From assembly GCF_019392195.1 (NCBI RefSeq), contig NZ_JAHXKI010000002.1, positions 682,001-746,000 of the forward strand: a DNA stretch of 64,000 nt, given 5' to 3'. The position numbers and the translations under genes are program-made. Shown here piece by piece: positions 5,691 through 41,473 of this stretch (positions are counted from its first letter, which is position 1; every line of letters starts with the position of its first letter). The notes beneath the pieces were generated by a model. That model had not been told where the DNA came from. It worked only from the letters and a program-made list of their open reading frames with translations, and searched no databases. This stretch comes from Marinobacter sp. F4206 (lineage in GTDB: Bacteria; Pseudomonadota; Gammaproteobacteria; Pseudomonadales; Oleiphilaceae).

Positions 5691-6854
5691 ATGGATAACG
5701 ACGAGCAGAGCCCGGCCACTACGCAGGACGCGAATGGAACTCCATCCACAACGGCACTGATCGAGGCGATCAATATTCGAAGCATGGCGCTGATCGTTCT
5801 GACCAGCATTGCCACCCTCTACTTCATTGACTGGGCCCAGTCCGTTCTGTTGCCGCTAGTGGTCGCGGTACTCATCAGTTACGCCCTCGACCCCGTGGTA
5901 TCGACGCTCGATAAGATCCGAATCCCCCGTCCGCTTGGTGCCGCCATAGCTCTGTTTGCCTTGATTGGCATCATCGCTGCGGCCAGCGTCCCGCTGAAAC
6001 AGGAAGCCATGGCGATGCTCGACAAGATCCCGGTGGCGATGAATGAGTTCCAGCGCAGGGAAGCCCACTCTTCCAACGAAGAAGAGAGCATCATGGAAAA
6101 GGCGCAAACAGCCGCAAAGGAAATCGAAGCCACCGCCGCGCAGGACCAGGAAGATGCCGAGTCCAGCCAGCCAGGCGTCACACGGGTTCGGGTGGTGGAT
6201 AAGCCCATGGATATACAGGAGTATGTCATCAAGGGTTCGCCGGCGGCACTGGTTCTTGTCTCCCAGTTCATCTCCGTACTCTTGCTGGTGTATTTCCTGC
6301 TGGCAGTGGGTTCGCTTTACCGACGCAAGGTTGTAAAGATTTCGGGCCCCTCTTTCGGACGCATGCGAAAGGCGGCCAGAATCATGAACGAACTGCACCA
6401 GCAGGTCCGCCGCTTCCTGTTCGTGACGGTCATTGGCGCCCTGTTCGTGGGCATCGTGACCTGGCTGGCGTTTCTGGCACTCGGCATGGAACAGGCTGCC
6501 CTGTGGGGCGTCGTGGCCGGAGTTGCCAGCGCCGTGCCCTACCTGGGTCCGTTTCTGGTTCTGATTGGCACCGGGGTTGCCGCGTTCATCCAGTTTGGCG
6601 AGTTGGAAATGGCCGTTATCGTATCCGGCGTCTCACTGATCATTACCAGTATCCAGGGCAATCTTCTGACGCCCTGGTTAACCAGCTATATCTCCAGCCT
6701 CAATGCAGTCGCCATCTTCATCGGACTCCTGTTCTGGGGCTGGCTCTGGGGACCTGTTGGATTAATTGTCGCAACGCCGATCCTGATGATCACCAAGTCG
6801 GTCTGCGATCACGTGGTTAACCTGCGCTCCGTTGGTGAGCTGCTCGGCAAATAG
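5691..6854 (+). CDS. AI-2E family transporter (PerM-like)
   Basis: A 387-aa inner-membrane protein of the AI-2E transporter family (PF01594). After a short hydrophilic tail there are two N-terminal helices (MALIVLTSIATLYFIDWAQ; LLPLVVAVLISYALDP), then the typical large central loop (about residues 110-175, here rich in Glu/Gln/Ala). A second membrane block contains the family hallmark GVVAGVASAVPYLGPFLVLIG and QGNLLTPWL...LNAVAIFIGLLFWGWLWGPVGLIVATPI. Despite the family name, members include permeases and Na+/H+ antiporter-like proteins, so substrate cannot be given. The DUF1206 gene follows after 19 bases and is probably cotranscribed. Confidence 0.9.
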   Translation: MDNDEQSPATTQDANGTPSTTALIEAINIRSMALIVLTSIATLYFIDWAQSVLLPLVVAVLISYALDPVVSTLDKIRIPRPLGAAIALFALIGIIAAASVPLKQEAMAMLDKIPVAMNEFQRREAHSSNEEESIMEKAQTAAKEIEATAAQDQEDAESSQPGVTRVRVVDKPMDIQEYVIKGSPAALVLVSQFISVLLLVYFLLAVGSLYRRKVVKISGPSFGRMRKAARIMNELHQQVRRFLFVTVIGALFVGIVTWLAFLALGMEQAALWGVVAGVASAVPYLGPFLVLIGTGVAAFIQFGELEMAVIVSGVSLIITSIQGNLLTPWLTSYISSLNAVAIFIGLLFWGWLWGPVGLIVATPILMITKSVCDHVVNLRSVGELLGK

Positions 6855-20879: not shown

Positions 20880-22151
20880 TTACGCCAGCGCTCGAACCAG
20901 GGCGCCCACCAGTTCCGCCTGGCGACGATAGCCATTTTTCGCGAGCAGATTCTTCACGTAGTCGCGTACCGTATGAACGGACAGGTTCTGTACCTCCGCT
21001 ATCTCACCAATACTGAGTCCCTGCATCAGGTACCCCGCCGTGACGCCTTCCGCCCTGGTACAGTTGAACAGGTTGCATAATTTGATGAGATCCGGGGCAC
21101 TTGCAGCCTGGAACGAGATGAGCTCCGCCAGCGCGCCGTATTTCCGACCCTGCTCACCCTGGTCCACGGCCTCCATGGATAGCGGCGTGATGCACACGGC
21201 AATACGGTCGTCACCTACCCGGTCAAACAGGGTAATCATGTCCTGAACGCCATCGCGGGCGTTGAAGATGCTGGTCAGGATGGCGTCATTCAGTTTCCGG
21301 TTAAAGCCGGGATTCCGGCTCTGCAACCGGGACTCGCTGCAGCCCGTCACAAACAGTCGGGGATGCGCCTCCAATATGCTCTCTGCGGCAGCATTGCACT
21401 GAACCACCCGGGCCATTTCATTGATCACGATCATGGGTTTGCTGATGCGATCGAGCGCCATCGACAGCGTCTCGTTCTCGGTCCGTGACTGGTAAAGCTT
21501 ATGGAAAAGACCCACGGCATTTTCGATATGCGGGGCAAGCATGTTCATCTGTAACAGTTCAGAGGGCGTGTAGTGTCCCTCGCTCCGATGCCGGTTAGCC
21601 AGGAACACCACACGGGAACCCTCTCCCCGACTGACCAGCATGCCGGCGCTGTCGCCAAGTCCTGCCTGTTCGACCCATTCGCGGGTTTCGTTGGTCACGA
21701 CATCAAGGATATCGATGCCCGGATCGCATTCGGTGAGAGATTCAAACTGTCGGGGTGGCAAGGCGCTGAATTTCAGGAGCGCCTCATCCTGCTGGGGAAG
21801 GTCGCTGTTCAAAAACCACTGCTCAAAACCCTCTGGATATCCGAACGTCCAGCCATAAACCATTCGGATCGGCTCGCCGGTCAGGCCCAGAATGCCACCT
21901 TGCAGGCAGCGAAAATGACGCTGGAACTCCTCGAAGAATGGCTGAAAGCCTTCATTTGTGTGCAAGCATCTGTAAAGCGTAGAGACTAACTGGTTGTAAC
22001 CGGCAAATTCCTGGACATCAATGCGCGAGATGTTGTCGACCGCTTCCACCGCTTTTTCGCCGGGGCTTTCTCCAAGTGCAGAAACGGAACCTTCAAGTAC
22101 GGGCCTTTCCAATGCATTTACTCCTTTGCTACGGCGCGGTCGCTTTCCCAT
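20880..22151 (-). CDS. LuxR-family transcriptional regulator
   Basis: A 423-aa regulator from ATG 22151, where GGGAG sits at a good distance; a TTG at 22196 would overlap the upstream gene. The C-terminal ~60 residues are a LuxR/FixJ helix-turn-helix: CTRAEGVTAGYLMQGLSIGEIAEVQNLSVHTVRDYVKNLL. The middle (about residues 235-350) looks like a PAS-type sensor (MIVINEMARVVQCNAAAESILEAHP). The first part may be GAF-like. It follows the alkylsulfatase gene by 41 bases, so it is probably in the same operon and may respond to surfactants or their products; that is an inference from position. Confidence 0.85.
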   Translation of the reverse strand: MGKRPRRSKGVNALERPVLEGSVSALGESPGEKAVEAVDNISRIDVQEFAGYNQLVSTLYRCLHTNEGFQPFFEEFQRHFRCLQGGILGLTGEPIRMVYGWTFGYPEGFEQWFLNSDLPQQDEALLKFSALPPRQFESLTECDPGIDILDVVTNETREWVEQAGLGDSAGMLVSRGEGSRVVFLANRHRSEGHYTPSELLQMNMLAPHIENAVGLFHKLYQSRTENETLSMALDRISKPMIVINEMARVVQCNAAAESILEAHPRLFVTGCSESRLQSRNPGFNRKLNDAILTSIFNARDGVQDMITLFDRVGDDRIAVCITPLSMEAVDQGEQGRKYGALAELISFQAASAPDLIKLCNLFNCTRAEGVTAGYLMQGLSIGEIAEVQNLSVHTVRDYVKNLLAKNGYRRQAELVGALVRALA

Positions 22152-24931: not shown

Positions 24932-25372
24932 TCACTGCCCCACGACGGTCACCGCCCCATGGACATGCCTGACAATCTTCTCGCTGACACTACCAAGGGT
25001 AAGACTGCGCACCAGGGAGTGACCGCGCCGCCCCAGCACCAGGTGAGTACCCGGGTGAGCGTTCATGTATTCGATGATTTCGTGGGCCGGGTCGCCGCTG
25101 AGAAGAATCTCCTCTGTCGCATCGGTCCGTCCACCAATTGCATCTTTCGCAGCATCGAACACTTTCCGACTGTGCTGCTGCTTGCCAGCTTCAATCTCAT
25201 TGTGTTCCACACCGGAAATGACCAGCACCGATTCCTTCGACGCGGGATATACCGTTAACAGTCTGAGCGGGTGCCCGGTGGCCTCAGCCAGTTCCGCGCC
25301 CATTTTTGCCGCACTCAGTGACTGAACCGAACCATCACATGCAACCACAATACTCGGAGAACCCTTGTCCAT
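24932..25372 (-). CDS. Universal stress protein (UspA family)
   Basis: A 146-aa protein from ATG 25372 (AGAGGTG ribosome site). It has the Usp fold: IVVACDGSVQSLSAAKMGAELAE at the start, and the ATP-binding G-2x-G-9x-G-[ST] motif near the end (VLGRRGHSLVRSLTLGSVSEKIVRH). Usp proteins of this ATP-binding class support survival under stress; in pseudomonads several are induced by Anr when oxygen is low. The promoter here fits that well (see the site at 25407-25447). The cNMP-domain gene follows in the same direction. A truncated duplicate of this gene with the same promoter lies at 36.2-36.4 kb. Confidence 0.92.
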   Translation of the reverse strand: MDKGSPSIVVACDGSVQSLSAAKMGAELAEATGHPLRLLTVYPASKESVLVISGVEHNEIEAGKQQHSRKVFDAAKDAIGGRTDATEEILLSGDPAHEIIEYMNAHPGTHLVLGRRGHSLVRSLTLGSVSEKIVRHVHGAVTVVGQ

Positions 25373-25406
25373 GGTGACACCTCTTTTGAATGACGTGTGT
25401 TCTCCG

Positions 25407-25447
25407 ATTATCACCGCTTGAGGATCGGCTTGATTGATTCAGGTCAA
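25407..25447 (-). promoter_or_regulatory. FNR/Anr-type promoter of the universal stress gene
   Basis: Read on the minus strand: TTGAC-CTGA-ATCAA at 25447-25434 (FNR/Anr consensus TTGAT-N4-ATCAA, one mismatch), 21 bases, then GATAAT at 25412-25407 as -10. The box centre falls about 41 bases before the expected start of transcription near 25400, the class II activator position. The same architecture recurs before the truncated copy at 36.4 kb. Confidence 0.7.
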
Positions 25448-34799: not shown

Positions 34800-36056
34800 A
34801 TGACCGAACACCTGGATGCCATAGTTAATGCCCGCTTACCCGAGCACGAGGGCCTGTATAGGCTCGCCATCACCGATGGCTGTTTCGGTGACATTACGGC
34901 CCAGCCCGATCGGGTGGCGGCCCGGGCCAACGAACTGGACGCAGACAGCAACCTGGTCACCCCCGCTTTTGTAGAACCGCACATCCACCTGGACGCCGCC
35001 CTGACCGCCGGCGAGCCCCGCTGGAACCAGAGTGGCACCCTGTTCGAGGGCATCGAGTGCTGGTCCGAACGCAAGGTAACCCTGAACCGCGAAGACGTCA
35101 TCAACCGGGCCACCCAGACCCTCAAACTGTTCGCTGCCCATGGCATCCAGTATGTGCGAACCCACGTTGATGTGACCGACCCGAACCTGACGGCCCTCAA
35201 GGCCATGCTGGAGGTGCGGGAGCAGACCGCCGACTACGTGGACCTGCAGATTGTTGCCTTTCCCCAGGAAGGCATCTGGTCCTTCCCGAATGGCCGCGAG
35301 CTGATGGAAGAGGCCATACGCCTGGGCGCCGACGTGGTGGGCGGCATCCCCCACTTCGAGTTCACCCGGGATTACGGTGCCGAATCGGTTCGATGGCTGA
35401 TGGAACTGGCCCACAAGCACGACCGGCTGGTGGATGTTCACTGCGATGAAATCGACGATCCGGAATCCCGGTTCCTGGAAATTCTCGCCGCTGAAGCCCT
35501 GAGGCTGGATTACGGTTCACGGGTCTCGGCCAGCCATACCTGCGCCATGGGTTCCTACAACGATGCCTACTGCAGCCGACTTTTCCGGTTACTGAAAAAG
35601 TCCGGCCTGCGGTTCCTGTCCATGCCCACCGAGAGCCTGCACCTGCAGGGCCGCTTTGACGGCTACCCGAAACGTCGCGGCCTGACCCGGGTACCCGAAC
35701 TGCTGGATGCCGGCCTGAAAGTCGCCTTTGGCCAGGACTCGATCCGGGATCCCTGGTATCCCATCGGCAACGGCAACATGCTGCGCACCCTTGATGTCGG
35801 CCTGCACGCCTGCCACATGCTGGGAATGAGCCAGATCAACCGGTCTCTTGAACTCATTACCGACAATGGTGCCGCGGCCCTGGATCTGAAGGAATACGGC
35901 ATTGCCAGGGGGATGCCGGCGCGGTGCATCGTGCAACAGGGACAGACTCCGTACGAGGTATTGCTCGGGCAGCGCCCGGTGCTGGCCTCGGTGCGGGACG
36001 GTAAATTGCTGGTTAAGCGCAGCGCCGTAGACTTCGACGCAGCCCTATCGCTCTGA
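34800..36056 (+). CDS. codA: Cytosine deaminase
   Basis: A 418-aa amidohydrolase matching E. coli CodA along its length. Active-site elements are all visible: metal-binding EPHIHLD, Gln in VAFPQEG, His and Glu of DVHCDEID, the His in SASHTCAM, and the Asp in FGQDSIRDPWYP. The blocks WNQSGTLFEGIE, LQGRFDGYPKRRG and HVRTHVDV-like (YVRTHVDVTDP) confirm the family. It hydrolyses cytosine to uracil and ammonia for pyrimidine salvage. Compared with E. coli, His before the catalytic Asp is Gln. The ribosome site is AAGGAG. No codB permease is adjacent, so transport must be encoded elsewhere. Confidence 0.93.
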   Translation: MTEHLDAIVNARLPEHEGLYRLAITDGCFGDITAQPDRVAARANELDADSNLVTPAFVEPHIHLDAALTAGEPRWNQSGTLFEGIECWSERKVTLNREDVINRATQTLKLFAAHGIQYVRTHVDVTDPNLTALKAMLEVREQTADYVDLQIVAFPQEGIWSFPNGRELMEEAIRLGADVVGGIPHFEFTRDYGAESVRWLMELAHKHDRLVDVHCDEIDDPESRFLEILAAEALRLDYGSRVSASHTCAMGSYNDAYCSRLFRLLKKSGLRFLSMPTESLHLQGRFDGYPKRRGLTRVPELLDAGLKVAFGQDSIRDPWYPIGNGNMLRTLDVGLHACHMLGMSQINRSLELITDNGAAALDLKEYGIARGMPARCIVQQGQTPYEVLLGQRPVLASVRDGKLLVKRSAVDFDAALSL

Positions 36057-36138
36057 ACCCCGATTTCTGTTGTCGTAACCGAAGCGACGCCATGTTCAAC
36101 CCGTATCAGACGAGGGCTCAGGGACTGACTGGCTAACA

Positions 36139-36204
36139 TCAGCTCGCCAACTCCTCCCACAGCTTGGCCCGAACGTTCATCAGAACCTTGCCGTAGCAGT
36201 TGTC
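36139..36204 (-). pseudogene. Orphan C-terminal gene fragment
   Basis: A frame out of register with the truncated usp copy reads GDNCYGKVLMNVRAKLWEEL and stops at 36139-36141. It looks like the very end of a protein, faintly like the LG-x-LM-x-VR-x-EL end of NADAR (YbiA-like) proteins, but it is too short for a firm call. It overlaps the last codons of the usp fragment and marks a recombination junction. Confidence 0.4.
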
Positions 36205-36368
36205 GCCCCGGCGATCACCAGTGGCGACGACTTCGAGTAGGGAAAGACGGATAACAGCGTGAGCGGGCCGCCCAGAGCCTCGGCCAGCTGTGCGGCCATT
36301 TTTGCCGCGTGCACTGATTGAACCGAACCATCACAGGCAACCACAAATACTGGTGAACCCTTGTCCAT
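36180..36368 (-). pseudogene. Truncated universal stress protein copy
   Basis: From ATG 36368, 62 residues match the start of the intact Usp at 24.9-25.4 kb: DKGSPVFVVACDGSVQSVHAAKM and AAQLAEALGGPLTLLSVFPYSKSSPLVIAG, then unrelated residues (ATTATARF) and a stop. The C-terminal ATP-binding loop is missing, so it cannot be a working Usp. The upstream region, including ribosome site, -10 and FNR-type box, is conserved at the same spacing, so the copy includes its promoter. It may still be transcribed under low oxygen. Confidence 0.85.
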
Positions 36369-36402
36369 GGCGACATCTCTCTTACCAGATGTATGTTCTC
36401 CA

Positions 36403-36443
36403 ATTATCACCTTTTAAGCCCTGGCACGCATGATTCATGTCAA
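36403..36443 (-). promoter_or_regulatory. FNR/Anr-like promoter of the truncated usp copy
   Basis: Minus strand: TTGAC-ATGA-ATCAT at 36443-36430, 21 bases, then GATAAT at 36408-36403. This duplicates the spacing of the intact usp promoter; the second half-site differs by one more base from the consensus. Confidence 0.55.
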
Positions 36444-36622
36444 CGCCGCGGAGCGGGGAAAAATCGGGTGTAACTTCGGAACGAAAAGGAGCGATAGCGC
36501 CCCACCGTGAGTGTGTTAAGGTGTTTTGAAGGGCCAACGCCCGGGAAATAACCGTCAGGCGTGCATGAGACAAGGGATGTGCTCGAAGATGCCGCAATCC
36601 AGACCTCAAGCAGGACAATGCC

Positions 36623-37840
36623 ATGATGTACTTTGCCCACGAGATGAGCCGCGCCGCATTAATGCCCGTGCGCATGATGACCGGTGCTCACAGCAAGCTG
36701 CTGCGACATCCGCTGAGCCCCCTGTCCCATCTGCCGGGCGCGCGCAGTGTAGCCTCGGCCTACGGGGTCTTTGGAGACCTGACCCGTCGCTATCCCAAAC
36801 CCGCCTTCAACCTGCACACCACCGTCTGTGATGGCGAGCAGGTCGACGTCCGGGAAGCCATCGTCAAACGCAAACCCTTTGCCCAGCTCAAGCACTTCCA
36901 GCGCAGCGTAGCACGGCCCGACGATCCGAAGCTGTTGATCGTGGCGCCGCTGTCCGGGCACTTTGCCTCATTGCTGCGTGGCACCGTTGAGGCCATGCTG
37001 CCGGAACACGATGTGTACATTACTGACTGGCGCGACGCCTGCCAGGTTCCACTCTCAGCCGGCGATTTCGGCCTCGACGATTACATCGACTACGTCATCG
37101 ACTTCATAGACTACCTGGGGCCGGACACCCACGTCCTGGCGGTTTGTCAGCCCGTGGTGCCCGTGCTCGCAGCCACCGCGATCATGGCCGAAGATCGCCA
37201 CCCGGCGGCTCCTCGCTCACTAGCACTGATGAGTGGCCCCGTTGATGGCCGTGTCGATCCGACCGAGCCCTGCGAACTGGCCACCGAGCATAATCTCGCC
37301 TGGTTCAAGCGCAATCTGGTTCACCCCGTCCCCGCGCCCTATCCTGGCGCAATGCGCAAGGTGTACCCGGGCTTTCTGCAGCTCGCCGGGTTCATGAACA
37401 TGAACCTGGACCGCCACATGGGCGCCTACCGGGGACTGTTCAATTCCATGCGCGACCGCAAGGTCGACAAGATCAGGCGCCACCGCGAATTCTACGACGA
37501 ATACCTGGCGGTGATGGATCTGCCAGCAACCTATTACCTGGATACCATCCAGCGTGTTTTCCAGGAATTTCACCTGGCCCGCGGCTGCTTCCGACACCGT
37601 GGCCGCCTGGTAGATCCGGCCGCCATCCACGACACCGCGCTGATGACGATCGAAGGTGAGAAGGACGACATCTCCAGTCCCGGACAGACCCGGGCCGCCC
37701 ACGACCTCTGTATCAATGTGCCCGATGCGCGGCGCCTGCATCACCTGCAGGCAGGCGTCGGCCATTACGGTGTGTTCAACGGCAGCCGCTGGCGCGAGGA
37801 GATATCGCCACGATTGCGGAACTTCATCCGCGCGTCCTGA
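36623..37840 (+). CDS. phaZ: Intracellular polyhydroxyalkanoate depolymerase
   Basis: A 405-aa alpha/beta hydrolase of the intracellular PHB depolymerase family. The nucleophile elbow is VCQPVVPVLA with Cys175 in place of the usual Ser, as in the Ralstonia PhaZ1 type. Other family blocks: APLSGHFASLLRGTVEAMLPEHDVYITDWRDA, GFLQLAGFMNMNLDRHMGAY, MTIEGEKDDISSPGQT (acidic residue) and HHLQAGVGHYGVFNGSRWREEI (catalytic His). It degrades stored PHA granules in the cytoplasm. The reductase phaB and synthase phaC follow in the same direction (122- and 39-base gaps), forming a storage-polymer cluster. Confidence 0.93.
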   Translation: MMYFAHEMSRAALMPVRMMTGAHSKLLRHPLSPLSHLPGARSVASAYGVFGDLTRRYPKPAFNLHTTVCDGEQVDVREAIVKRKPFAQLKHFQRSVARPDDPKLLIVAPLSGHFASLLRGTVEAMLPEHDVYITDWRDACQVPLSAGDFGLDDYIDYVIDFIDYLGPDTHVLAVCQPVVPVLAATAIMAEDRHPAAPRSLALMSGPVDGRVDPTEPCELATEHNLAWFKRNLVHPVPAPYPGAMRKVYPGFLQLAGFMNMNLDRHMGAYRGLFNSMRDRKVDKIRRHREFYDEYLAVMDLPATYYLDTIQRVFQEFHLARGCFRHRGRLVDPAAIHDTALMTIEGEKDDISSPGQTRAAHDLCINVPDARRLHHLQAGVGHYGVFNGSRWREEISPRLRNFIRAS

Positions 37841-37962
37841 GGGGCGGCCCTGCGCTGATTTCTTGTGAGGTTGTGGGAGCTCTGCTAGCTTCAAGAGTGA
37901 TGGTCTAATCAACAAAAACAATTGCTCGGAAGCAGAATCGTCACGATTCCAAGGAGAGTGTC

Positions 37963-38706
37963 ATGCAGGACCTCAAAGGCAAGGTCGCCATCGTCACCGG
38001 TGCCTCCCGCGGCATCGGCCGACACATCGCACTTCAGCTCGCCCAGCGTGGCGCCGACGTCGCCATCAACTACCGTTCACGCCAGTCCGAAGGGGACGAG
38101 GTCGCCAGGGAAATCGAAGCACTTGGTGTCCGGGCGTTGGCCATCCAGGCGGATCTCTCCCAGATGCCAGAGGCACGCCGCCTTGTGCGTCAGGTCTGTG
38201 ACCAATGGGGGCGCATCGACATCCTGGTGAACAACGCCGGCATCACCCGCGACAAGTCCATGAAAAAGCTCACCGACGAGGACTGGAACGACGTTCTCGA
38301 CACCAACCTGGGAAGCGTCTACGCCACCTGCTCCGAAGTGCTGAAAGTCATGATGGACCAGAAGTACGGCCGCATCATCAACATCACCTCATTCGTAGGC
38401 CAGGCCGGCAATTTCGGACAGGCCAACTACGCGGCCAGTAAGGGCGGCATCATTGCGTTCACCAAAACCCTGGCGCTGGAAATGGCCAAGTACAACATTA
38501 CCGTAAATGCCATTGCCCCGGGCTTTACCGAGACCGAGATGCTCGCCCAGGTGCCCGAGAATATCCGCGAACAGATCATCGCCCGGGTCCCGATGGGCCG
38601 TTTCGGGCAGCCCGAGGAAATCGCCCGGGCAGTGGTCTTCCTGGCGGCGGAAGGAGACTACATCACCGGCCAGCAGATCAACGTGAATGGCGGTGTGTAT
38701 ATGTAG
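37963..38706 (+). CDS. phaB: Acetoacetyl-CoA reductase (PhaB/FabG-type SDR)
   Basis: A 247-aa short-chain dehydrogenase. NADP-binding TGASRGIGRHIA is near the start, then NNAGITRDKSMKKLTDEDWNDVLDTNLGSVY, the Ser-Tyr-Lys triad (NITSFVGQAG...YAASKGG), and the end QQINVNGGVYM. The TRD-x-x-x-x-K-L-x-x-x-W block is typical of PhaB and close FabG relatives. Its position between phaZ and phaC indicates reduction of acetoacetyl-CoA to (R)-3-hydroxybutyryl-CoA. AAGGAGAG precedes the ATG. A role as 3-oxoacyl-ACP reductase cannot be excluded by sequence alone. Confidence 0.88.
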   Translation: MQDLKGKVAIVTGASRGIGRHIALQLAQRGADVAINYRSRQSEGDEVAREIEALGVRALAIQADLSQMPEARRLVRQVCDQWGRIDILVNNAGITRDKSMKKLTDEDWNDVLDTNLGSVYATCSEVLKVMMDQKYGRIINITSFVGQAGNFGQANYAASKGGIIAFTKTLALEMAKYNITVNAIAPGFTETEMLAQVPENIREQIIARVPMGRFGQPEEIARAVVFLAAEGDYITGQQINVNGGVYM

Positions 38707-38745
38707 CCCAGCGGTCCCGGCAGCCCCGGAGTGGAGAGCGTAACG

Positions 38746-40641
38746 ATGTCAAAAAAACCGGTGAAGACCTCACCCGCGTCAGAATTCGAACCCAACGTTG
38801 TGCGCCGGTCACTGGTGCGGGCGGGTGTGCACGGTGGCCATCTGCTGAAACGCACCATCGTGCGCCGGTTACGCGGCGGCCCTCCGAACCCGACCAGCAT
38901 CAAGAGCATCGCCAAACCGTTTGCGACCCTGACCGGCAAGCTCACGACCCAGCCCGATACCCTGGCTTTCGCCCAGATGCGCCTGATCAAGGACACCACC
39001 AGTTTCTGGGCAGGCCTGCTGAGCAGCAGAATAAGCAACAAGCCGCTGGCGGTGGCGGAACCAGAGCCGGGTGACGGGCGTTTCCGGGATCAGGCCTGGG
39101 ATGAGGTCACGGCATTCAATGTCATCAAACAGGCATATCTGCTGTCGAATCGCTGGATTATGGAAACCCTCGACGATGTCCGCGACCTGGACGATCACGA
39201 CAGACGCAAGCTGCGCTTTTTCACCAGCCAGATGACCGACGCCATGGCGCCGAGCAACTTCATCCTGAGCAACCCCGAAGTGCTGCGTGCGACCGTCCAG
39301 ACCCGGGGCAGGAACCTGCTGCGCGGACTGGCCAACCTGCTGCGTGATCTGGATGAAGGCAAGGGCCCCATGCCGTTTCGCATGTCCGACCCGGACGCCT
39401 TTACCGTGGGGGACAACCTGGCCAACACGCCCGGCGACGTCATTTTCCAGAACGAGCTGATGCAGCTCATCCAGTACCGGCCCACCACCGACACCGTGCA
39501 TCGCCGGCCGCTGCTGGTGATACCGCCGTGGATCAACAAGTACTACATCCTGGACCTGGGTGAGAGAAAGTCGTTCATCCGCTATTGGGTGGAACAGGGC
39601 CATACCGTTTTTGTGGTTTCCTGGGTCAATCCCGGTCCGGAACTGGCCCATAAGAGCTTCGAAGACTATATGCTTGAAGGGCCCGTGGCCGCCATGGACG
39701 CCATTGAGCGTGCCACCGGTGAGCGCGAAGTCAACACCGTCGGCTACTGCATCGGCGGTACCCTGCTCGGCTGCACCCTGGCCTGGCTGGCCGCCCGAGG
39801 CGACGACCGGGTCAAGAGCGCGACCTTCCTCAACAGCCTGATGGACTTCTCGGACGTGGGGGACCTGGAAGTGTTCATTGACGAGGACGCCATTGGCAAA
39901 ATCGAAAAAGCCATGGCCAAGCAGGGCTATCTCGAGGGTGCCTCCATGGCGACAGCCTTCAACATGCTGCGGGCCAACAGCCTGATCTGGTCCTTCTTCG
40001 TCAACAACTACCTGCTGGGGCGCGATACCGCACCCTTCGATCTCCTGTACTGGAATTGCGACGCCACCCGCATGCCCTCGGCCATGCACAGCTTCTATCT
40101 GCGCAACATGTACCTGCACAACCGGCTGCGTGAGCCCGGCGCGATTAAACTGGCGGGCACCCCGATCGACCTGGGCAAGATCACGATCCCCTGCTACTTC
40201 GCATCCGCCGTTGAGGATCACATCGCACCCTGGATTTCCTGTTACCGGGGATCGCGTAATCTGGGCGGGCCGGTGCGTTTTGTGCTTGGCGGCTCGGGGC
40301 ACATCGCAGGCATCATCAATCCGCCAGACCGGAAAAAGTATGGCTACCGACTGAACGACGACAGCAACCTGGATCCGGAGGCCTGGTTGGAAGGCGCCAG
40401 GCAATTCGAGGGTTCCTGGTGGCCGGACTGGGTGGCCTGGGCGGAGCAGTTTGGTGGCGGCGAAGTGAAGGCCCGCCATTCCGAGGACGGTAACCTGCCG
40501 GTGATTGAACCAGCGCCCGGGGCTTATGTACGGAACGAGCCGGCGCCACCTGTGCCGGCCGCCAAAAAACGCCCGAAAGCTCCACGCAAGAAGGCAGCGA
40601 CAAGGAAAAAGGCACCGGCGCCTACCAAAGTCAGTCAGTGA
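38746..40641 (+). CDS. phaC: Class I polyhydroxyalkanoate synthase
   Basis: A 631-aa PHA synthase, from ATG 38746 behind GGAG; a GTG five codons earlier is less likely. The catalytic triad is Cys335 in VGYCIGGTLLG (the PhaC box), Asp491 in VEDHIAPW and His519 in GSGHIAGIINPP; the Asp-His spacing of 28 equals that of the Ralstonia enzyme. Class I features include PPWINKYYILDL and VSWVNPGPELAHKSFEDYMLEG. The C-terminal ~35 residues form a Lys/Ala/Pro-rich tail that may bind granules or DNA, an extension beyond most class I enzymes. It polymerises (R)-3-hydroxyacyl-CoA. Confidence 0.95.
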   Translation: MSKKPVKTSPASEFEPNVVRRSLVRAGVHGGHLLKRTIVRRLRGGPPNPTSIKSIAKPFATLTGKLTTQPDTLAFAQMRLIKDTTSFWAGLLSSRISNKPLAVAEPEPGDGRFRDQAWDEVTAFNVIKQAYLLSNRWIMETLDDVRDLDDHDRRKLRFFTSQMTDAMAPSNFILSNPEVLRATVQTRGRNLLRGLANLLRDLDEGKGPMPFRMSDPDAFTVGDNLANTPGDVIFQNELMQLIQYRPTTDTVHRRPLLVIPPWINKYYILDLGERKSFIRYWVEQGHTVFVVSWVNPGPELAHKSFEDYMLEGPVAAMDAIERATGEREVNTVGYCIGGTLLGCTLAWLAARGDDRVKSATFLNSLMDFSDVGDLEVFIDEDAIGKIEKAMAKQGYLEGASMATAFNMLRANSLIWSFFVNNYLLGRDTAPFDLLYWNCDATRMPSAMHSFYLRNMYLHNRLREPGAIKLAGTPIDLGKITIPCYFASAVEDHIAPWISCYRGSRNLGGPVRFVLGGSGHIAGIINPPDRKKYGYRLNDDSNLDPEAWLEGARQFEGSWWPDWVAWAEQFGGGEVKARHSEDGNLPVIEPAPGAYVRNEPAPPVPAAKKRPKAPRKKAATRKKAPAPTKVSQ

Positions 40642-40678
40642 GGCACCGGTGAATATGGTTCAGTAGGATTCTGTTTTC

Positions 40679-41473
40679 CTAGGCCCGCGCCCTAGTTATC
40701 CGGAACAGTGCCTCGGGAGCCACTCGTTTGATCCAGAGCGCGGCCATTTCCTTGCCCTTGCCCACCGGAATCTCCCGCTTCTTAGCCGAGAGCCCTTTGA
40801 AAACCACCTCGGCACATTCCGTCACATCCATGCCTCCGGCAATGTTCTCGTCCACCTCACCAAACGCCGAGCCGTCACCGGCGAGAGCATTTCGTGAAAT
40901 ATCCGTGCGGATGAAGCCCGGCACAATGGTCGACACGTCAATCCCCTGGCCTTCCACCTCGGCGCGCAGGGCATCGAAAAACCCCATCACCGCATGCTTG
41001 GCGGCACAGTACCCGGTACGCAACGACACGCCGACCTTGCCGGCCACACTGGCCGTTACCGCGAGGTGACCGGAACCGCGTTCCAGCATATGTGGCAGCA
41101 CCGCCTTGGTCAGCGCGATCTGGCCCATCACATCCACATCCATCAGCTTCTGGTAGACCGACATGTCGGTGTCCTTGCACAAGGAGCGCTGGGACACACC
41201 GGCGTTGTTGATCAGCAGATCGATGCCGCCAAACGTATCCAGCACGGTCTGGACCGCTCCGGGCAACGATTCCCAGTCGGTCACATCCAGCGGCAGCACC
41301 AACACCTCGTTCGCCGAAAGGCCCGCATCACGGCACAAACCGGCGACGCGCTCCAGTTCGTCCTTGCGCCGGGCGGACAGGACAAGACGGGCACTGTCCT
41401 GGGCAAATCGCAGGGCGAGCGCTTCGCCGATGCCGGCTGATGCGCCGGTAATCCAGACGGTTTGAGCAGACAT
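40679..41473 (-). CDS. SDR family oxidoreductase
   Basis: A 264-aa classical SDR: TGASAGIGEALALRFAQ (cofactor), NNAGVSQR, and the catalytic Ser (TASVAGKVG) with Tyr/Lys in TGYCAAKHAVMGFFDALRAEVEGQGI. The EVEGQGIDVSTIVPGFIRT run places it with SDRs of the DHRS7-like group acting on lipid or steroid-like alcohols. AAGGAG precedes the ATG. It is convergent with phaC, 37 bases apart, and does not belong to that operon. Substrate unknown. Confidence 0.9.
   Translation of the reverse strand: MSAQTVWITGASAGIGEALALRFAQDSARLVLSARRKDELERVAGLCRDAGLSANEVLVLPLDVTDWESLPGAVQTVLDTFGGIDLLINNAGVSQRSLCKDTDMSVYQKLMDVDVMGQIALTKAVLPHMLERGSGHLAVTASVAGKVGVSLRTGYCAAKHAVMGFFDALRAEVEGQGIDVSTIVPGFIRTDISRNALAGDGSAFGEVDENIAGGMDVTECAEVVFKGLSAKKREIPVGKGKEMAALWIKRVAPEALFRITRARA

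Follow-up and report, generated by a model that had tools for sequence, protein, structure and literature searches.

A truncated universal stress protein gene joined to the end of a NADAR gene in Marinobacter: a likely deletion scar, probably not a copy of the neighbouring usp gene

A remnant of a universal stress protein (usp) gene lies on the minus strand of the window, a 64,000-nucleotide stretch of a Marinobacter genome (G000, C2:682001-746000). The usp part, which is the first third of the gene and has a candidate FNR/ANR-like box and a putative -10-like element in front of it, breaks off and is followed, in another frame, by the end of a NADAR-family gene (Table 1). The remnant is convergent with an amidohydrolase gene and divergent from a phaZ-like gene, and an intact usp gene is located in the same window. 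Other Marinobacter genomes are designated by G numbers. The genus searches covered 124 genomes, one per species, with the remnant's own included.

Table 1. Positions of the remnant, its parts, the neighbouring genes and comparable usp loci
Feature	Position	Strand	Remark
usp remnant region	36139-36443	minus	box, 21-base spacer, GATAAT, leader, 54 usp codons, abrupt break
FNR/ANR-like box TTGACATGAATCAT, candidate	36430-36443	minus	1 base off TTGACATGAATCAA of G100 usp
-10-like GATAAT, putative	36403-36408	minus	21 bases past the box
First 54 usp codons, rest of domain gone	36207-36368	minus	alignments, Pfam, tree
Junction GTGATCGCCGG	36208-36218	minus	11/11 bases as in G100 NADAR; 10/11 as in G100 usp
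NADAR-family gene end, last 25 codons and stop	36139-36216	minus	not in the usp reading frame
Amidohydrolase gene	34800-36056	plus	convergent with the remnant; adjoins intact NADAR in G016 and G063
phaZ-like PHB depolymerase gene	36623-37840	plus	divergent from the remnant
Intact usp gene, 146 aa from ATG	24932-25372	minus	clusters with the G016 and G063 usp genes; unlikely parent of the remnant
FNR/ANR-like box TTGACCTGAATCAA of intact usp, candidate	25434-25447	minus	pattern match
usp remnant of G004	L072:8926-9196		
usp remnant of G028	L059:4882-5100		

The two usp copies of the window were aligned, as the first-pass annotation had suggested. The minus-strand interval 36444-36208 matched the intact usp region (24932-25414) with a score of 175, compared with at most 28 among 500 three-base-block shuffles. 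The similarity ends after 54 codons, at a glycine, and these codons contain no stop. The called ORF encodes 76 residues (36180-36410, minus strand) from a GTG start that overlaps the -10 region; the true start is probably the ATG at 36368, at the same place as the MDKGSP start of the intact gene. The ORF scored above the cut-off of the Pfam Usp profile (E 8.8e-7, 30 bits, cut-off 24), covering only profile positions 6-53 of 141, and its frame ends ahead of the C-terminal motif, leaving an incomplete domain. The intact usp carries GRRGHSLVRSLTLGS near its C-terminus (G2XG9XG(S/T); GRRG-X9-GS), which we take to be the nucleotide-binding motif.

The second frame reads DRRGDNCYGKVLMNVRAKLWEELAS from 36216 and closes with TGA at 36139. 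This peptide matched the Pfam NADAR profile weakly and below the cut-off (E 0.0049, 17.6 bits, cut-off 35.1), and it reaches only profile positions 145-163 of 163, far from a complete domain. It was 95% identical to the G100 NADAR over 22 residues and 79% identical to the intact NADAR of its own genome (C2:1630091) over 24 residues. The first-pass description, a shortened usp gene that retains its start and promoter region and runs into the tail of an unrelated gene, is upheld, with NADAR as the partner.

The distance from the start of the box to the ATG is 75 bases both in the remnant and in the intact usp. The first-pass annotation had the two copies agreeing in box, spacer, GATAAT, leader and about 55 codons, and the alignment bears this out apart from the box, which reads TTGAC-N4-ATCAT in the remnant and TTGAC-N4-ATCAA in the intact gene. 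Relative to TTGAT-N4-ATCAA, the remnant's box has 8 of the 10 letters and the same spacing, with TCAT replacing TCAA. In a survey of the box, 56 usp places besides the remnant were listed, and 30 of these Marinobacter loci were examined. A WTGAY-N4-RTCAA box starting 74-77 bases before the ATG was present at 24 of the 30 loci, and the remaining six had no such box at that position. All of the 24 boxes end in TCAA, and the remnant was the sole addition under a looser pattern that allowed any last base. Because nine of the 24 boxes carry ATGA in the first half-site, the mirror of the remnant's change, one half-site change may be tolerated, and FNR/ANR-type binding may occur at the remnant's box. 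The spacing, the GATAAT and the position of the box are as proposed for a kept oxygen-type promoter; the last base of the box departs from TCAA. The window holds four TTGAY-N4-ATCAW matches against 0.47 expected, and at least four were obtained in 2 of 100 shuffles. Two further FNR-like boxes (TTGAT-N4-ATCAT) are located at 5961-5974 and 21421-21434.

The identical spacing had been read as showing duplication of the promoter and start of the intact usp. Most of the examined Marinobacter usp loci share this spacing, so that it does not prove duplication. We regard it as improbable that a copy of the promoter and start of the 24.9-kb usp arose within this lineage and inserted into a NADAR gene at 36.4 kb. 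Such copying would fit the presence of two equally spaced copies 11 kb apart in one genome, the intact NADAR that G016 and G063 carry at the corresponding position, and the protein comparison, in which the remnant was 73.5% identical over 68 residues to its own usp and equally so to the G100 usp. At the DNA level, however, the coding, spacer and leader sequences are all nearer to the G100 usp. The coding DNA was 80.2% identical to the G100 usp and 73.5% to the own usp, and the alignment over spacer, leader and codons scored 240 and 171, respectively. In the search of the 124 genomes, with at most four candidates scored for each, G100 was the best match to the usp part (80%; own usp 75%) and also to the NADAR-derived tail (88% over 67 bases), for which G096 came next (85% over 68 bases). 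For the NADAR tail, G100 also ranked first among 33 loci with a NADAR match, several of which are overlapping copies of one place. In a tree of promoter plus coding DNA, for which 23 of the 31 aligned rows were used, the sister of the remnant was the G100 usp (support 94/94, just below the tool's 95 mark), and not the 24.9-kb usp, which joined those of G016 and G063 (99/97). Coding DNA alone (162 columns) did not resolve the place of the remnant. Two clades chosen after seeing a tree were forced: that of the remnant with its own usp was disfavoured (p-AU 0.0175), while that of the remnant with the own, G016 and G063 usps was not rejected (p-AU 0.092). An older paralogue of the own/G016/G063 group is a possible origin of the remnant, because this wider clade was not rejected, a result that would also fit local copying. 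Judged from these comparisons, the remnant is unlikely to have been copied from the 24.9-kb usp.

In G100, a NADAR gene, two further genes, a usp gene and an SDR gene all lie on one strand. Its usp and NADAR are intact and 2.6 kb apart, and G100 is the only genome with them this close among those whose places were compared. By eye, the two intervening genes are lipase-like and lipoprotein-like. We consider it likely that the stretch in the window is a deletion scar derived from a G100-like layout. The ancestor would have had a usp gene with a NADAR gene downstream on the same strand, as in G100 today. Two short stretches of similar sequence (GTGRTCGCCGG) would then have bounded a deletion that removed the remainder of usp, everything in between and all of NADAR except the last 25 codons, with an out-of-frame join, and the leftover usp promoter region and 54 codons would be drifting, probably useless to the cell. 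The mechanism and size of the deletion and the absence of function are what we infer. At the junction, TCGCCGG is a 7-base exact run common to the G100 usp and the G100 NADAR. Runs of at least 7 bases occurred at a fraction of 0.0003 of 20,000 random breakpoint pairs, a figure counted on G100 stretches around the known breakpoints and not on all possible deletions. The junction across both halves was found in the own genome alone, with no match in the other genus genomes (at most four candidates scored for each of the 124). On the G100 map, the deletion amounts to 3,283 bases. The larger intervening gene was matched in 8 of the 124 genomes searched, but not in the remnant's own; six of these matches, that in G100 among them, were close (77-100%). 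The true deletion may therefore have been smaller than 3,283 bases, as would be the case if the two intervening genes of G100 came later, and the deleted stretch may have differed from that of G100.

Between the NADAR remnant and rnz, the window contains phaZBC and an SDR gene (36623-41473). The fused usp-NADAR piece, already broken or breaking, could have come together with this block from a Marinobacter resembling G100 and entered a backbone of the G016/G063 type. We hold this only tentatively, at somewhat less than even chances; it overlaps the deletion explanation and is not in competition with the deletion itself. It is in line with the regions examined in G016 and G063: there, amidohydrolase, NADAR and rnz are consecutive and pha genes are absent among the listed matches of at least 35% identity, whereas in the window that place is occupied by the fusion, phaZBC and the SDR gene. 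No match to phaZ was found in G016. The phaZ is 91% identical to that of G100, the highest value seen, but phaB is closer to G096 (95%) than to G100 (92%), the SDR gene gives 90% with G102, 89% with G011 and 89% with G100 (the last two nearly equal), and the pha genes of G100 are 7-11 kb away from its NADAR. A broken second phaZ with stops was observed in G027 (C90:34620-35212), about 5 kb before the intact phaZ.

Transcription from the remnant under low oxygen had been suggested to run antisense into the phaZ upstream region. The direction is wrong for this, as the promoter points away from phaZ and toward the 3' end of the amidohydrolase gene. RNA from the remnant promoter would leave phaZ behind, since phaZ lies on the plus strand, with its start at 36623. 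Antisense control of phaZ was rejected on this geometry; the conserved stretch before phaZ (about 36530-36622, in several of 13 aligned relatives) ends short of the remnant and contains no TTGAY-N4-ATCAW. Transcripts reading through would instead be antisense to the amidohydrolase gene, whose stop (36056) is about 340 bases from the remnant promoter.

It is very unlikely that the putative promoter would still fire at low oxygen and yield a 62-residue peptide or a short RNA, such as one antisense to the 3' end of the amidohydrolase gene, and we give hardly any credence to a low-oxygen ANR-type promoter RNA running into that end and kept as a regulator. The nearly intact box, spacing and GATAAT, the stop-free codons and the lack of a minus-strand terminator-like site between the putative promoter and 35900 would agree with retained function. 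They are opposed by the altered last base of the box, by GAGA ahead of the ATG in place of the GAGG of the G100 and own usps, and by the failure of the genus searches to show a second genome with the same junction. In addition, the Rfam search of 35900-36700 returned no known RNA family at E up to 1, and a simple scan of this interval found no sigma-70-type site, although such a site is not required in an FNR-type promoter. The same interval gave two overlapping terminator-like sites, each located upstream of the box, compared with 0.7 in shuffles. A terminator-like hairpin lies at 36488-36507 on the minus strand, upstream of the remnant box, in a stretch that shows no alignment with the DNA upstream of the G100 usp. 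The remnant-specific changes numbered 5, 3 and 4 at the three codon positions, whereas third positions held 46 of the 77 changes of five intact usps combined; this contrast was not significant (Fisher p 0.12). The dN/dS of the remnant versus G100 was 0.15/0.50, about 0.30, and that of G100 versus the own usp was 0.15. The truncation may be young, because the ratio versus G100 is not like that of a long-dead gene, and we infer that part of the divergence between the remnant and G100 is older than the truncation. The effect of the remnant on the cell is probably nil.

Matches to the remnant were found in 54 of the 124 genus genomes, the own genome included. G004 and G028 also contain usp remnants with internal deletions, the frame being shifted in G004 and two deletions being present in G028, and besides these remnants they have only distant usp matches (28% identity). 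The additional remnants in these two genomes suggest that deletions have eliminated the usp gene on more than one occasion within Marinobacter. Paired usp genes with starts about 0.6 kb apart occur in G085 (C6:258303-259049) and G142 (C42:257897-258659). In a wider scan of named genomes, the remnant gave 421 pattern-matching stretches, none of which encoded a relative, and four intact usps gave 9 loci, of which 4 were from Marinobacter. No paper joining Marinobacter, universal stress protein and polyhydroxybutyrate was found in the open-licence PMC literature.

Anr-dependent usp genes have been reported from Pseudomonas aeruginosa (PMC8509486), and another report describes usp genes controlled by FnrL and the Fnr site TTGAT-N4-ATCAA (PMC5398030). 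The remnant is like the Anr/Fnr-dependent usp family (Pfam PF00582) in its sequence, its start and an FNR-like box at a fixed spacing. Unlike these genes, it has 54 codons only, lacks the GRRG-X9-GS stretch and carries a changed base at the end of its box. According to PMC11125620, the NADAR family (Pfam PF08719) reverses guanine ADP-ribosylation. The 25 codons of the remnant tail match the ends of intact Marinobacter NADAR genes, but nothing else of the gene is left and the tail is in a different frame from the usp codons. Deletion between short homologous stretches is a general route of pseudogene formation. Pseudogenes of this kind have a junction with shared bases and an out-of-frame fusion, and the remnant has both, with no notable difference. 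The remnant looks like an ordinary pseudogene, the scar of a dead gene and not a new kind of regulator, and it exemplifies how a remnant whose nearest DNA kin sit together in another species may be mistaken for a local duplicate.
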